In this document: positions 1,324 through 35,938 of the stretch, in pieces
Numbering within the stretch: the stretch's first letter is position 1
Layout of the letters: each line of letters starts with the position of its first letter
Source: Haloarchaeobius salinus
GTDB taxonomy: Archaea > Halobacteriota > Halobacteria > Halobacteriales > Natrialbaceae
Reading direction: 5' to 3'
Length of the DNA: 64,000 bases
NCBI RefSeq assembly: GCF_024464185.1
Contig: NZ_JANHAU010000002.1
Span: forward strand, 186,001-250,000
The notes under the pieces: model-generated
What the model was told of the DNA's origin: nothing
Seen by the model: only the letters and a program-made list of their open reading frames with translations
The model's database searches: none
Program-made: the position numbers and the translations under genes

Positions 1324-1471
1324 GCGGAACCAGCGTTTATCTCCGAAGCCGCGCCCAGAGCCAGCGTCAGCCACGACTCGGCCGCGCGGTGGTCTGGGCG
1401 GGTGTGCGGTGCGCCCCCGCGCGGGAGCCGACGCACCGCCTGTCCGCCTGAACCGCCAGCGATGCCCTCGT

Positions 1472-3591: not shown

Positions 3592-5151
3592 CTACTCCCC
3601 GTCGTCAGCTCGGAGGAACCGAGCCGCGCCGAGACCGAGGCCGGCGAGGGCGGTGAGCGCGCCGAAGCCGGGCGAGCCGCCGTCGTCGCCGCTCTCGGTC
3701 GGCGTCGCGGTGGTGCCGTCCACCGTGCTCGTGCCGGTCTCCGTCGGCGTCGCGGTGGGCGTCTCCGTCGCCGTCGGTGTCTCGGTCGGCGTCGCGGTGG
3801 GGGTCTGGGTCGGCGTCTGCGTGTTCGGGCTCTCGCTCTCGACGTAGTCCGGCCAGTCGACGCTCGTGATCAGGCTGGTCTCCTCCGGCGGGGTGAACAC
3901 GCCCGGGGGCTCGGCCATCTCCCCATCGGTATCGGGGAAGACGTAGAGCCCGCCGGTGTTGCTCTGACCGGGACCCATGTTGCCGGCGACGAAGACGCCG
4001 ACGGCGTCCGGACCGTTGTACCGGGCGTACTTCGCGCCCCAGAACTGCGTGGTGTCGGGGTCGCGCCACCAGGCGATGCGCTCCGGATTGGCGGGGTCCG
4101 AGACGTCGTGGATCATCACGCCCCCGTAGTACCAGGAGGTGTAGAGGCGGTCTCGGTTGAGTGAGAAGTTGTGCGAGGTGGTGAACTGGCCCTGGAAGCC
4201 CTCGTTCTCCGCGCCGGGCGCGCGGATGGTGGTGAGCTTCTCGGGGCTGGTCTTGTCGGAGATGTCCCAGATGTCGATGCCGCTCGCGCCACGGCGGTCG
4301 TCGTCGGGGTTGGTGTCCCACGACTCCGCGCCGACGTACAGCGTCTCCGCGTTCTCGTCGACGGTGACGTAGTGGTCGTTGCCGGGCGGCTGGTAGAAGA
4401 TGTCGACGAGGTCCTGCTGCTGGACCTGTGCGAGCTTCTGCGGGTCCGCGCCGCCGAGTCGACTGACCATCGACGGGTTCGCCCTGTCGGAGATGTCGAC
4501 GATGACGGTGCCGGCGTCCCAGTTCGCGAGGTAGGCGTAGTCGCCCTGCACCCACAGGTCGTGGACGTTCCGGAAGTTGGGGTTGACCTCGCTCCAGATG
4601 TCGGCGGTCTGGTGGATTCCCCACTCCGAGACCGCACTGAACTCGTCGCCCGACGTGTCCATGATGCGGAACCGGTCGCCCTTGGTCAGGTAGGCGTAGC
4701 CGTCCTCGAAGAAGCTGTTGTGGATGGAGTGGTCGACCGTCTGGACAGCCAGCTGCTCTGGGTTCGCGGGGTCGGAGATGTCGTAGAGCAGTGCCGCCTT
4801 GATGACCTCGCCGGCCTGGTTGGGGCCGACCACGAGCAGGCGGTCGCCGTCGACCTTCACGTCCGCGACGGCCTGCATCGGGCCGGCGTCGCGGTCGGCG
4901 AGCAGGTCGCGGTCTTCGAAGGCGATGCTGGGGTTCGCCTCGTCCGAGATGTCGACCGAGACGAAGCCGTCGCTGGCCGCGACGAACGCGAAGTTCCCGT
5001 CCTCGGTCGGGGCGACCTCCATGGTACCCTCGATGTCGACGCTACCGAGTGGCTCGTAGGCTTCCTGTGCTCGTGTTGCGGAGGCTGTCCCTCCAACTGC
5101 ACCCAGTGCGAGCGCGCCTGCACCCGCACGGAGCACATCTCTTCGTTCCAT
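3592..5151 (-). CDS. LVIVD-repeat surface protein, Tat-exported, PGF-CTERM-like anchor (copy 2)
   Basis: Paralogue of the downstream gene, 519 residues, with the same order of parts. It has an RR signal (MERRDVLRAGAG), repeated VDISDEANPS, YDISDPANPE, VDISDRANPS, WDISDKTSPE and HDVSDPANPE units, a long TPTxTPT stalk (about residues 455-490), and SPGFGALTALAGLGLGAARF with a short charged end. It is probably exported folded by Tat and then anchored after archaeosortase cleavage. The 116 bp between the copies shows no gene, and the pair probably arose by tandem duplication. Biological role unknown; the propeller could bind a protein or glycan. Confidence 0.83.
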   Translation of the reverse strand: MERRDVLRAGAGALALGAVGGTASATRAQEAYEPLGSVDIEGTMEVAPTEDGNFAFVAASDGFVSVDISDEANPSIAFEDRDLLADRDAGPMQAVADVKVDGDRLLVVGPNQAGEVIKAALLYDISDPANPEQLAVQTVDHSIHNSFFEDGYAYLTKGDRFRIMDTSGDEFSAVSEWGIHQTADIWSEVNPNFRNVHDLWVQGDYAYLANWDAGTVIVDISDRANPSMVSRLGGADPQKLAQVQQQDLVDIFYQPPGNDHYVTVDENAETLYVGAESWDTNPDDDRRGASGIDIWDISDKTSPEKLTTIRAPGAENEGFQGQFTTSHNFSLNRDRLYTSWYYGGVMIHDVSDPANPERIAWWRDPDTTQFWGAKYARYNGPDAVGVFVAGNMGPGQSNTGGLYVFPDTDGEMAEPPGVFTPPEETSLITSVDWPDYVESESPNTQTPTQTPTATPTETPTATETPTATPTETGTSTVDGTTATPTESGDDGGSPGFGALTALAGLGLGAARFLRADDGE

Positions 5152-12314: not shown

Positions 12315-12328
12315 GCACGGCCCGACGG

Positions 12329-12440
12329 TTCAAGTACGAAGCGGGGGCCAGACCCGCCGTGACCTGACCGTCGTCCTCCGACGGGGAGCGAGTGTGCGAC
12401 ACGTCGTCGGGGGCAGCCCCGAGTGTCGCCTGTTCGCCAC
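12329..12440 (+). repeat. Intergenic repeat element, copy A (candidate structured RNA)
   Basis: A 112-bp element starting 15 bp after uvrA. It shares three blocks with the copy at 29754-29868: TTCAAGTACGAAGCGGGGGC at the start, GTGTGCGAC at 12392, and GTCGCCTGTTCGCCAC at the end. Predicted hairpins are GCGGG/CCCGC early, CCGTCG/CGACGG in the middle and GCGACAC/GTGTCGC around the second and third blocks. It may be a small RNA or a mobile-type intergenic repeat. TTCAAGTA could alternatively be a TATA-like box of a promoter. It has no coding character. Confidence 0.6.
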
Positions 12441-28825: not shown

Positions 28826-29725
28826 ATGGAGGTCACGCTCGGCCCGGCCGTCCTCGAGCAGTACGACCGGCTCTCGCTGTACAACTCGCCGTACCCCGCC
28901 CACGATGCGGGCAACGCCGTCGACTGCTACCCCGGCGACGACACCGCCCCGAGCCCCGTCGCCGGGACGGTACGCGGGACGGTCACGGTCAGAGCACCGC
29001 CACGTGACTACGCCGACGAGGAGGACCACCTCCTGCTCGTGGACGTGGACGTCGAGGCGACGCCGGCGCTGTCCGTCGGCGGCGGCGAATCCACCGCCCC
29101 CGAGCTTGTCGCCCGCATCATGCACGTGGACTCCCCGCTCGACCCAGGGACCCGAATCGCGGTCGGCGACGACCTCGGCGACCTCGTCTTCCCCGGCTTC
29201 TTCGGCCCGTGGGTCGATCCGCACCTCCACGTCGGCTTCCGCCGGCCGGAACAGCACCTCCACCGCGCGTCGGGGTCGCTCCCGCTCGTCGCCGACGTGC
29301 CCGTCGAGGCGGTCCCCTGGGACGGGGTCGGCGAGGTCGTCGCGACGGGGGACACGTGGGCGATGCTCGACGCACCCGGTCATCCAGCTCCGGGTCGGTT
29401 CGTCGGCCTCGAAGCGACCGATAGCGAGGGGGCGCAGGTCGTACTCGACGGTGGGTTCAGACACTACGACTGCGGCGGTCTGTTCGACGAGCGCGGCTCC
29501 CGACGCGACGGCGACGGCCCCGTGACGTTCCTCGGCGAACGGGTCGGCGTCGCCGAGGGACGGACCGTCCGCTGGGACGACGTGGCCGTGCGCGCGAACG
29601 GGCAACCGGTCCACGGGCTCTCGCTGTTCCTCGCCCGCGACGCGGGTTTCGGCGCGAAGCTCGTCTGCCCGGACCACGAGTTCGCGGTCGGTGAGCCGGT
29701 CACGGTCACCGTCGACCCGGCGTAG
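28826..29725 (+). CDS. M23 (LytM)-like domain protein
   Basis: Protein of 299 residues. The N-terminal 140 residues follow the M23 metallopeptidase plan: YPAHDAGNAVDCYPG (H26, D33), SPVAGTVRG, a central ARIMHVDSPLDPG with GDDLGDL, and DPHLHVGF giving an HxH pair (H133, H135). The first His-Asp spacing is longer than in true LytM enzymes, so activity is uncertain. No signal peptide is seen, which is odd for a peptidase of cell walls that archaea lack. The C-terminal half is beta-rich. The start at 28826 (MEVTLGPAVL) is the first in-frame ATG after the divergent upstream gene. Confidence 0.72.
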   Translation: MEVTLGPAVLEQYDRLSLYNSPYPAHDAGNAVDCYPGDDTAPSPVAGTVRGTVTVRAPPRDYADEEDHLLLVDVDVEATPALSVGGGESTAPELVARIMHVDSPLDPGTRIAVGDDLGDLVFPGFFGPWVDPHLHVGFRRPEQHLHRASGSLPLVADVPVEAVPWDGVGEVVATGDTWAMLDAPGHPAPGRFVGLEATDSEGAQVVLDGGFRHYDCGGLFDERGSRRDGDGPVTFLGERVGVAEGRTVRWDDVAVRANGQPVHGLSLFLARDAGFGAKLVCPDHEFAVGEPVTVTVDPA

Positions 29726-29753
29726 CCCGGGCCCGGGGCAGCCGCACCGTGGC

Positions 29754-29868
29754 TTCAAGTACGATGCCGGGGCCAACGGCGGCGTGTTCTGACGAACCGC
29801 CACGCGACGGCCGAGGTCGGTGTGCGACGCACCGTCGTGTGTCCCCTGCCGCGTCGCCTGTTCGCCAC
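29754..29868 (+). repeat. Intergenic repeat element, copy B (candidate structured RNA)
   Basis: A 115-bp element in the 191-bp gap between the M23-like gene and the convergent isochorismatase gene. It matches copy A at 12329-12440 in three blocks: TTCAAGTACGATGCCGGGGC, GTGTGCGAC at 29820, and GTCGCCTGTTCGCCAC at the end. Block spacings are 66 and 33 nt here versus 63 and 33 nt in copy A. GCCG/CGGC closes the first hairpin and GCGACGC/GCGTCGC the last, with a paired change relative to copy A. Confidence 0.6.
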
Positions 29869-30582: not shown

Positions 30583-32130
30583 ATGCGAGCAACGGCGAGC
30601 GTCCTCGTCGCCCTGCTCGTGGTCCTCGCGGGCTGTAGCGCACTCACCGGTTCGAGTGCACCCGAGACCGAGACCACGGCACCGACCGAGGAGATACAGA
30701 CGACGGCAGAACCGACCGACGAACCGACCACGAGCGACGGCTCCAGTGAGTCGTCCGCCCCCGCCGACCCCGAGGAGGACGTCCTGGGCTGGGAGGACGG
30801 CTACTGGTACAACGAGAGCCTCGACGTCGACCGGAGCGACGGCCTGAACGACTCCGAACTCGACGCGGTCGTCGCGCGCTCGATGGCTCGGGTGGAGCAG
30901 GTCCGCGGTCTGGAGTTCGAGGAGCGTGTCCCCGTCGAGATCATCTCGCGCGAGGAGTACCGCGAGGAGGTCGAGTCCGGAAACACGACGCCCGAGAACC
31001 GACTCCACCAGAACGTGAAGTGGGAGGCGATGCTGATGGTCGACGAGTCGACCGACGCCATCGCAGTCCAGAACCGCAACTTCGCAGGGGGTGTCGGTGG
31101 CTACTACTCGCCGAGCCAGGAGCAGATCGTCATCATCTCCGACTCGGAGACGCCGGAGATGAACGAGATCACGCTCTCCCAGGAGCTGTTCCACGGGCTG
31201 CAGGACCAGCGCTTCGACATCAGCTCGTTCAACCAGTCGACCCAGGAGCTCCACAACGCCCGGGACGGCATCATCGAGGGTGACGGCAACCTCGTGGACC
31301 AGCTGTACCAGGAGCGCTGTGAGTCCGACTGGGACTGCCTGATGCCCCAGCAGGGCCAGGGCGGCGGTGGCGCGAGCGACATCCACCTCGGGCTGTACCA
31401 GGTCACCTTCCAGCCGTACAGCGACGGCGTCCTGTTCGTCCAGCAGCTGTACGAGCAGGGCGGCTGGGACGCCGTGAACGCGGTGTACGAGAACCCGCCG
31501 GCGAGCACGGAGCAGACCATCCACCCCGACCGGTACCCCGACGAGGAACCGGACTACCCGACCATCGAGGACCGGAGCTCGGGCGAGTGGCAGGTGCTCG
31601 ACCTCGAGGGTGGCGTCGACTACGCATCCTTCGGCGAGGCCGGGCTGTACGTGATGTTCTGGTACCCGTCGTACGAGACGACCCAGGCGACCGGCCAGCT
31701 GACGGACGTCGTCATCCCGTACCAGGACCACCTGAACTACGACGGCCAGCAGCTCGACCAGACGGACCCGTTCAACTACGACCACCCCATCACCGACGGC
31801 TGGGCGGGTGACCGGCTCCTGCCGTACGTCACCGACGATTCGATGGAGACGAACGAGACGGGCTACGTCTGGCAGACCGAGTGGGACAGCGAGGGCGACG
31901 CGGCCGAGTTCGCCGACGCCTACCGCGACCTGCTCGACCACCACGACGCGCAGGCAGTGAGCGACCGACCGAACACGTACCGCATCGACGACGGTGCGGA
32001 GTACGGCGACGCCTACTACGTCGTCCAGCAGGGGACGACCGTCACCATCGTCAACGCGCCGACGGTCGACGACCTGAGCGGCGTCCGCAGCGGTGCCGGC
32101 ACGACGAACGCGAGCGTCGTCGGGGCCTGA
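30583..32130 (+). CDS. Hvo_1808-family surface lipoprotein with QExxH in place of HExxH
   Basis: Exported lipoprotein of 515 residues. A signal peptide with lipobox LAGC (C18) is followed by a Thr/Glu-rich linker to about residue 65. The conserved body begins with LGWEDGYWYNESLDV and contains TLSQELFHGLQDQRF, where the zincin motif of the family reads Q200-E-L-F-H204. The first metal-binding His is therefore lost, and peptidase activity is doubtful. C-terminal segments YVWQTEWDSEGDAAEFADAY and TVTIVNAPTVDDL match the next gene. It is tandem with a paralogue that keeps HELEH. Confidence 0.87.
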   Translation: MRATASVLVALLVVLAGCSALTGSSAPETETTAPTEEIQTTAEPTDEPTTSDGSSESSAPADPEEDVLGWEDGYWYNESLDVDRSDGLNDSELDAVVARSMARVEQVRGLEFEERVPVEIISREEYREEVESGNTTPENRLHQNVKWEAMLMVDESTDAIAVQNRNFAGGVGGYYSPSQEQIVIISDSETPEMNEITLSQELFHGLQDQRFDISSFNQSTQELHNARDGIIEGDGNLVDQLYQERCESDWDCLMPQQGQGGGGASDIHLGLYQVTFQPYSDGVLFVQQLYEQGGWDAVNAVYENPPASTEQTIHPDRYPDEEPDYPTIEDRSSGEWQVLDLEGGVDYASFGEAGLYVMFWYPSYETTQATGQLTDVVIPYQDHLNYDGQQLDQTDPFNYDHPITDGWAGDRLLPYVTDDSMETNETGYVWQTEWDSEGDAAEFADAYRDLLDHHDAQAVSDRPNTYRIDDGAEYGDAYYVVQQGTTVTIVNAPTVDDLSGVRSGAGTTNASVVGA

Positions 32131-32173
32131 CTGCAGGCCAAACTCCTTTGCCGCCCGAGCCGAACCCACGGCC

Positions 32174-33616
32174 ATGAGACGTATCCTCCCCGTCGCCTGT
32201 CTCGTCGGCCTGCTCCTCCTGTCGGGCTGTCTGGACCTCGGGTTCGGCGAGACGCGCCTCGCCGAGCCGGAGTCGAACCGGCCCGACCCGGACACCGACG
32301 TGCGCGGCTGGGAGGACGGCTACTGGTGGAACGACTCGGTACCGGTCGACGCCAGCGACGGACTGAGCAAGCAGGAGCTCGAGGCGGTCACCGCACGAGC
32401 GATGGCCCGCATCGAGCGCCTCCGCGGCCACGAGTTCGAGGAGTCGGTCTCGGTCGAGATAATCTCCCGGGAGACGTACCGTGAGCAGCGCGGGGGTGGC
32501 GGCTCCTCGCCGGAGTGGCGCGAGCAGTTCTGGGAGGCGCTGTTCGTCGTCGACGAGGACACGACGGTGGACGAGGCGTTCGGCGAGCTGTACGGCTCGT
32601 CGGTGCTCGGCTACTACTCCGCGGGCGACATCGTCATCGTGAGCGACGGGTCCGACCAGCTCCGGCTCTCTCGCGCGACACTGGTGCACGAACTCGAGCA
32701 CGCGCTGCAGGACCAGCAGTTCGGGCTCGCCGCGCGCACGACGACGCGGGACGGCCGGCTGGCCGCGTCGGGGGTCGTCGAGGGCGACGCGAACTACGTC
32801 GAGGGGCTGTACGAGCAGCGCTGCGCGGCGGGGACGTGGGACTGCGTCGAGGTTCCCCAGGAGGACGGTGGCGGCGGCAGTAGCAACGTGAACGTCGGGC
32901 TCTCGGTGGCGACGTACACGCCGTACGCGGCGGGCGAGCGGTTCGTCGCGGCACTGTACGAACGCGGCGGCTGGGACGCCGTCGACGCTGCCTTCGAGAA
33001 CCGCCCGGTCAGCACCGAACAGCTCATCCACCCCGGGACGTACCCCGACGGGCAGCCGGCGACGGTGACGGTGCCGGACCGGTCGAACGACGACTGGCGG
33101 CGGATCACGGTCGGCGGCGAGTCGGTCCGCGAGACGGTCGGCGAGGCCCAGGCGTACTCCATGTTCTGGTACGGCGAGGTCGTCCCCCGCGAGCACTACA
33201 CCAGCGGCGAGGGTGTGAACCGGTACACGTACGAGCACCCGTACTCGGCCGGCTGGGAGGGCGACCGGCTGGTGTTCTACACCGACGGCGACCAGGGTGC
33301 GTACGTCTGGCAGTCCGAGTGGGAGTCGGCCGACGAGGCGCGCGAGTTCGCCGACGCCTACCGCGAACTGCTGGCAGCCAACGGAGCCGAATCCCGCGGT
33401 GGAGGGGTTTACGTCGTGCCGGAGGGTGGGTTCGCCGACGCGTTCCGCGTGGTCAGGGACGGGGACACGGTGCTCGTCGTGAACGCGCCGACGGTGGCAG
33501 AACTCGACGACGTGCACGCGCCCGGTTCACTCGACGTCGTCGCGGCGGACGCCGGAGCGACGGCGTCGTCGCCACTCCCCGGCACGACGACGGCGAACCG
33601 GACCGGAGCCGCCTAG
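32174..33616 (+). CDS. Hvo_1808-family surface lipoprotein with intact HExxH
   Basis: Paralogue of the preceding gene, 480 residues. The lipobox LLSGC (C19) indicates a lipid-anchored surface protein. The shared start of the mature domain is RGWEDGYWWNDSVPV, and the zincin motif VHELEHALQDQQF (HELEH at 172-176) is complete, suggesting a metalloprotease. YVWQSEWESADEAREFADAY and TVLVVNAPTVAEL near the C terminus align with copy 1. The 43-bp gap permits co-transcription. Substrate is unknown; the pair could act as an active enzyme with a regulatory pseudo-enzyme (inference). Confidence 0.88.
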   Translation: MRRILPVACLVGLLLLSGCLDLGFGETRLAEPESNRPDPDTDVRGWEDGYWWNDSVPVDASDGLSKQELEAVTARAMARIERLRGHEFEESVSVEIISRETYREQRGGGGSSPEWREQFWEALFVVDEDTTVDEAFGELYGSSVLGYYSAGDIVIVSDGSDQLRLSRATLVHELEHALQDQQFGLAARTTTRDGRLAASGVVEGDANYVEGLYEQRCAAGTWDCVEVPQEDGGGGSSNVNVGLSVATYTPYAAGERFVAALYERGGWDAVDAAFENRPVSTEQLIHPGTYPDGQPATVTVPDRSNDDWRRITVGGESVRETVGEAQAYSMFWYGEVVPREHYTSGEGVNRYTYEHPYSAGWEGDRLVFYTDGDQGAYVWQSEWESADEAREFADAYRELLAANGAESRGGGVYVVPEGGFADAFRVVRDGDTVLVVNAPTVAELDDVHAPGSLDVVAADAGATASSPLPGTTTANRTGAA

Positions 33617-35515: not shown

Positions 35516-35938
35516 GGTAGAGAGAGCCCGGCCGCCGCGACGTGGCACCGCCACGACGTGAGGAAAGTCCCCCCACCGTCCGGACAGGTGGCCGGATGCA
35601 AGTCCGGAGCGGGAGACCGCTGGCTCTGGAACAGAAACGAGACCCCTCGCCCCGAGCGATGAGGCGCGAGCGGTGACGCGAGTCACCGCCCGGCGCGAAC
35701 GGCGCGAGCCGCGAGCGCGCGAACCGACCCGCAAGGGAAGGGAGCTGACCCGCCGAGCGCGCGTGGTCGCACCCGCGACCACGTCCGGGCACGCGGTCCG
35801 CCGCGTGTCGACGGGCGAGAACGGATGGAACGGCGAATCCCCACCGGTGCAAGTCCGCGCCGTCAGGTAGTCCGGACGAGGCGACGGACGCTCAGCCGAA
35901 TGCCGGGACGAACAGAAGGGGGCTTACTCCTCTCAACC
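35516..35938 (+). ncRNA. rnpB: RNase P RNA (archaeal type A)
   Basis: Catalytic RNA that removes tRNA 5' leaders. The conserved region I appears as GAGGAAAGTCC near 35561-35571 and conserved region V as ACAGAAGGGGGCTTA near 35912-35926; together they form the P4 helix. GGTAGAGAG at 35516 pairs with CTCTCAACC at 35930-35938 as P1, which sets both ends at about 423 nt, the size expected in haloarchaea. GATGCAAGTCCGG (35595-35607) and GTGCAAGTCCGCG (35847-35859) are other family elements. Reading frames here are not coding. Confidence 0.93.

Follow-up and report, generated by a model that had tools for sequence, protein, structure and literature searches.

The interval between the stop of an M23-like gene (position 29725) and the end of a convergent isochorismatase-like gene (29917) contains a conserved unit at 29746-29868, here called copy B. 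Positions are those of the window, by which we mean the whole 64-kb stretch of DNA that was analyzed. An earlier note had recognized at 29754-29868 the second copy of an intergenic element. The copy is real: in a comparison within the window it aligns with copy A (12321-12440) at E = 2e-6 and 71% identity, and the proposed ends fall almost exactly on those of the conserved unit, a TATA box at one side and the final conserved base at the other. The window holds three copies (A, B and C), with the following features.

29746-29868, plus strand: copy B, whole conserved unit of putative promoter and RNA gene (match to covariance model R1, E = 3.4e-25)
29754-29761, plus strand: copy B, TATA box TTCAAGTA (position of the AT peak; box swapped in orthologues)
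29768-29776, plus strand: copy B, CG.G.CCA stretch in the interval from TATA box to start (class-wide conservation)
29784, plus strand: copy B, predicted transcription start at base 1 of GTG (30 nt past the initial T of the box; all 170 copies have a purine here)
29784-29792, plus strand: copy B, two-codon mini-ORF GTG TTC TGA (RTG-NNN-stop in 155 of 170 copies)
29801-29810, plus strand: copy B, 5' strand of P2 CACGCGACGG (covariation)
29824-29830, plus strand: copy B, 5' strand of P3 GCGACGC, inside the P2 loop (covariation)
29832-29841, plus strand: copy B, 3' strand of P2 CCGTCGTGTG (covariation)
29851-29857, plus strand: copy B, 3' strand of P3 GCGTCGC (covariation)
29858-29867, plus strand: copy B, conserved 3' tail CTGTTCGCCA (alignment)
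12321-12440, plus strand: copy A, whole unit (match to copy B; covariance model)
12329-12336, plus strand: copy A, TATA box
12359-12367, plus strand: copy A, mini-ORF GTG ACC TGA
12375-12384 and 12404-12413, plus strand: copy A, P2
12396-12402 and 12423-12429, plus strand: copy A, P3
12430-12439, plus strand: copy A, tail
1328-1450 (contig 187328-187450), plus strand: copy C, whole unit (covariance model match, E = 2.2e-12)
1336-1343, plus strand: copy C, TATA box TTTATCTC
Mini-ORF site of copy C, plus strand: GTC AGC CAC (ORF lost)
1406-1412 and 1433-1439, plus strand: copy C, P3, GCGGTGC with GCACCGC
1440-1448, plus strand: copy C, tail

Copy C, which went unmentioned in the earlier note, is more diverged, with the mini-ORF lost and the pseudoknot intact. 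The window also carries an archaeal RNase P RNA gene at 35516-35938 on the plus strand (Rfam RF00373, 133 bits) and, at 30583-32130 and 32093-33616 on the same strand, a pair of similar lipoprotein-like ORFs that resembles a tandem duplication (DGYWYNESL/DGYWWNDSV).

The genome to which the window belongs (3.85 Mb in 17 contigs) yielded 12 copies to blastn at E <= 3.3e-5 and 30 copies, at E <= 2e-5, to a covariance model built from 14 copies; species of the same genus have 31 to 40 copies each. Within the class Halobacteria, 72 of the 116 genomes searched had matches at E <= 1e-4, which represent 26 of 46 genera. Outside the class, none of the 85 sampled genomes of the phylum gave a match, a result that doubles as a negative control. 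Genera of Halobacteria that have the element carry 1 to 40 copies per genome, and each genus has its typical copy number: about 30 in several genera, 5 in every sampled member of one genus, and 2 strong copies in most members of another. In the class sample, most members of the window's own family are without the element. Copies are present in Halobaculum gomorrense, Halobellus rufus, Halomarina halobia, Halorientalis pallida and a Salinirussus MAG, and Haloarcula hispanica, a genetically tractable species, probably has about 5. Collections of plasmids and phages contained no convincing copy. A weak match to the element model (26 bits) at 4625-4723 of an IMG/VR viral contig may be due to chance. 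None of the Rfam 15 covariance models matched at the elements at gathering score, and in ten loci none did so even with the limit raised to E = 5. No description of the family was found in the open-access literature; the family seems not to have been described before. Judging from these sequence comparisons, the copies almost certainly constitute a real multigene RNA family.

The upstream part of the unit has the hallmarks of a promoter. When 155 copies were anchored on RTG, the AT fraction peaked at -30 to -24, and in 268 genes called at these loci the peak was at -29 to -26, which is the leaderless pattern. The first T of the TATA box lies at -31 to -29 in 153 of the 155 copies, and the predicted start is a purine in all 170 copies in which it was scored. 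With a TATA box at leaderless distance and a purine start, the element appears to be a leaderless transcription unit, and it is highly likely that each copy has its own promoter. Orthologous copies swap the TATA box TTCAAGTA for TTTATGAA, TTTATATC, TTCATATC and others, indicating that AT-richness of the box, and not any single sequence, is maintained. For haloarchaea, TTWT has been proposed as the TATA-box motif and CGAAA as the BRE, and in Haloferax leaderless transcripts make up 72% of the protein-coding ones (PMC4983044). Unlike in ordinary genes, the stretch CG.G.CCA between TATA box and start is conserved in nearly all copies class-wide, which suggests a candidate operator through which one common regulator may switch all copies. 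The promoter also accounts for the peptide LAPASYL, which the earlier note had read on the reverse strand. The peptide is indeed present in copies A and B, but it occurs in only 4 of 170 copies overall and was rejected as a conserved product. It arises when the TATA box and the bases that follow (TTCAAGTACGANGCNGGNGCNAG), a promoter stretch, are read as their reverse complement, and it vanishes wherever the TATA box sequence differs.

Downstream of the start, the RNA is predicted to form an H-type pseudoknot with a P2 of 10 bp, an L1 of usually 11 or 13 nt, a P3 of 7 bp and an L3 of mostly 7-11 nt, P3 being the pairing of the P2 loop with the 3' side. In 14 copies from the window's genome, 91.6% of the P2/P3 cells were paired and 32 were doubly changed, where shuffles gave 10.7; slid versions of the pairing collapsed. 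Furthermore, P2 and P3 pairs ranked top in a mutual-information scan of 89 copies with background correction, the top ten covarying column pairs including a single non-complementary one. With 27 species pairs taken together, the pair positions of orthologous sites show 26 double changes and 17 single changes that stay paired, and 26 changes accompanied by a non-pair in at least one species. On this covariation, the pseudoknot is very probable. The P2 cells of 170 copies comprise 1506 Watson-Crick pairs, 95 G-U, 19 A-C and 56 others; since G-U far exceeds A-C, the RNA corresponds to the plus strand. Unpaired bases in the loops and tail are nearly invariant (GCGG..G and CUG...GC). The conserved 3' tail CUGUUCGCCA is 11 nt in 135 of 156 copies, and sequence conservation stops past it.

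Two other pairings were considered and rejected. An outer helix chosen by RNAalifold, in which the 5' GGCGUG pairs with the 3' strand of P3, showed one-sided changes only, with no double change, and would consume promoter bases. A hairpin GCCGG..CCGGC ahead of the start showed no covariation in the mutual-information scan and is taken as promoter or operator sequence. No 8-mer of 23S rRNA was complementary to the consensus segments of the element. In the same sense, the element has the 8-mer TGTTCGCC in common with the apparent 23S A-loop (locus L262, rRNA position ~2588), the stretch shared by the tail being UGUUCGCC; this likeness is compatible with chance.

The predicted start coincides with a two-codon reading frame, A/GTG-NNN-stop, in 155 of 170 distinct copies. 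The start triplet is GTG in 139 copies and ATG in 22; RTG is lost in the remaining 9 (ATC 4, GTC 3, GTA 1, ACG 1), a constraint weaker than that at the stop, which is TGA in 156 copies, TAG in 4, TAA in 3, TGC in 1, and an indel or other triplet in 6. TAG and TAA stops come from several genomes (loci L115, L189/L192 and L213; L210, L216 and L236). Codon 2 is free, specifying 12 amino acids across copies and changing between orthologues, and the spacer from stop to P2 measures 7-8 nt in 145 of 155 copies. The base before the stop is C in 136 of 155 copies, more than coding requires, and most of the seven UAG/UAA copies carry G there. About 9% of copies, including copy C, are without the mini-ORF; most of them retain the pseudoknot, and translation may therefore be dispensable at some copies. 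GUG makes up 6% of Haloferax leaderless starts and is associated with low coverage (PMC4983044); this codon, with which 139 of the 170 copies begin, is a weak start codon. The pattern of triplets suggests that the two-codon ORF is likely to be translated. A structural motif nevertheless retains some standing as a reading, because the UAG/UAA copies mostly also change C to G before the stop.

The genomic setting of the copies was scored with our own trained codon-score gene caller. Among 181 copies, 63 lie between convergent genes, 57 are antisense to both neighbors, 37 are sense to both, and 24 lie between divergent genes; an ORF call overlapped 4 copies. The earlier note had held that the element is the promoter of neither neighboring gene, which is borne out, and that it keeps a common orientation to the preceding gene, which is true of copies A and B but not of the mixed family. 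From that orientation it had suggested a 3'-end or free-standing RNA role. Intergenic copies in all four gene arrangements point to free-standing genes rather than 3' ends, so that the second half of this suggestion survives and the first does not. The note had named location inside coding genes, ends without conservation and random orientation as signs against the element. The copies are intergenic and their ends are fixed, and the mixed orientation speaks for a stand-alone gene, not against the element being real. It is consequently very improbable that the element works in cis on neighbor genes as a 3' end, an insulator or a processing element. Such a role would suit the short gap after a stop codon that copies usually occupy and the prevalence of convergent over divergent settings (the commonest and the rarest, respectively), but not the mixed orientation to neighbors, nor an own TATA box at a fixed distance from the start.

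All 21 scored copies of the nearest sister species have an orthologue at the same site in the window's genome, and the loci are thus stable. Paralogous copies, in turn, differ strongly in sequence. Copy B (locus L031) and its sister-species orthologue L094 lie in loci that are ~89% identical, yet their RNA parts are only 70% identical, and the RNA part of copy B resembles copies L034 and L035 of its own genome. Divergence so far above that of the flanks hints at gene conversion between copies as a possible process. Loci L059 and L060 are decayed copies; L059 is degenerate, and its sister-species orthologue L103 scores intact. Two elements from different families, L047 and L130, sit on opposite strands beside an alignable flank that matches the rfcS gene region, and the spread of the entire RNA family must accordingly date far back. 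This shared flank, the interspersed intergenic distribution, and copy numbers that range from 0 to 40 across genera would fit a dispersed mobile repeat (MITE or REP-like) with a chance promoter and fold, most copies of which are relics. We regard such a repeat as improbable, given that the sister-species copies are orthologous at the same sites, that structure and TATA box are kept by compensatory change at fixed sites, and that no convincing copy was found on plasmids or phages. Terminal inverted repeats did not show up in a non-systematic inspection, and in place of recent near-identical copies or insertion polymorphism between close species the paralogues are strongly divergent.

The arrangement of start, stop and pseudoknot suggests how the RNA could work. 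An RNA of ~85 nt, leaderless and with transcription starting on A/GUG, would let the ribosome start directly on its 5' end and read one sense codon. The stop would be reached just as the pseudoknot meets the mRNA entry channel, and termination or recycling would be slowed there. The RNA would in this way capture and park ribosomes, or make them drop dipeptidyl-tRNA, and act as a dosage-dependent translation brake fed by dozens of loci. We give roughly even chances to the idea that the family consists of leaderless 'minigene' RNAs, each of which engages ribosomes and keeps them held up at its pseudoknot; a ribosome-directed function, suggested by layout and precedents, is likewise an evenly balanced proposition. 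More tentatively, the dozens of dispersed, co-regulated RNAs could set translation capacity class-wide, as ribosome traps or hibernation factors.

Other functions have been weighed against this proposal. A free-standing structured RNA that binds protein as a sponge or scaffold, its 5' RUGNNCUGAC serving as protein/RNA contact or transcription-start context, is rather unlikely, though it would explain why unpaired bases of the loops and tail are nearly invariant, why copies without the ORF mostly keep the fold, and why the C before the stop is conserved beyond coding need. What it explains poorly is the mini-ORF itself: a structural TGA would not favor TAG and TAA among the variants over TGC and the few indels, the G/A exchange at the first base preserves the start codon, and the spacer is fixed. 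It is also very doubtful that the pseudoknot drives readthrough or frameshifting at the stop with translation onward. A stop, a spacer of 7-8 nt and an H-type pseudoknot are indeed arranged as in the readthrough and frameshift signals of viruses (PMC5009743). However, the lengths of loops and linkers differ by amounts not divisible by three and conservation does not extend past the tail, both of which make a longer product unlikely. Overall, the family probably acts on translation. It adds to a well-studied archaeal class a large family of structured RNA genes that has no entry in Rfam and reaches ~40 loci in a genome. Should the two-codon ORF be read, the family would offer a natural and massively repeated test case for leaderless initiation, for termination beside a pseudoknot, and for RNA control of the archaeal ribosome.

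Several known systems share parts of this design. Haloferax has ribosome-bound sRNAs without a protein product (PMC12482152), and those of Haloferax volcanii, such as rancRNA_s194, resemble the element as intergenic haloarchaeal RNAs of ~100 nt (PMC6104027; PMC12482152). As described, however, rancRNA_s194 is a single gene whose RNA binds the large subunit (PMC6104027), whereas the element is multigene. In readthrough and frameshift stimulators, too, a stop or shift site is followed after a few nucleotides by an H-type pseudoknot, with a range of spacers that includes 7-8 nt (PMC5009743). The element differs from them in having no slippery site and, probably, no conserved reading frame downstream.

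The ORF of start, one codon and stop is shared with bacterial two-codon minigenes, among them phage lambda bar. Another is mg2 of axe-txe; such ORFs release peptidyl-tRNA, and their toxic codons include Thr (PMC8708949). The bacterial minigenes have a Shine-Dalgarno sequence and lie in leaders or antitoxin genes, whereas the element is predicted to be leaderless, stands alone and continues into a pseudoknot. The CreT RNA of Halobacterium hubeiense combines a leaderless mini-ORF with a stem-loop, and CreT of the haloarchaeal CreTA system, which has an efficient start codon, traps a rare tRNA by means of two consecutive rare codons (AGA or AUA), under repression by CreA and CRISPR-Cas (PMC8501985). 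Like CreT, the element would be a small haloarchaeal RNA with a start codon at its predicted leaderless 5' end, a mini-ORF of few codons and a stable fold downstream; CreT works through translation, as we infer for the element. The element differs in that its single sense codon is not conserved and is AGA or AUA in none of 155 copies, that a pseudoknot takes the place of the stem-loop, and that a genome holds tens of copies. Given these tens of scattered copies between unrelated genes, a creA neighbor with degenerate CRISPR repeats is unlikely. The family is thus nearest to the CreT RNA toxins by analogy but, with its tens of copies and without a pair of rare codons, is not a member of CreT.
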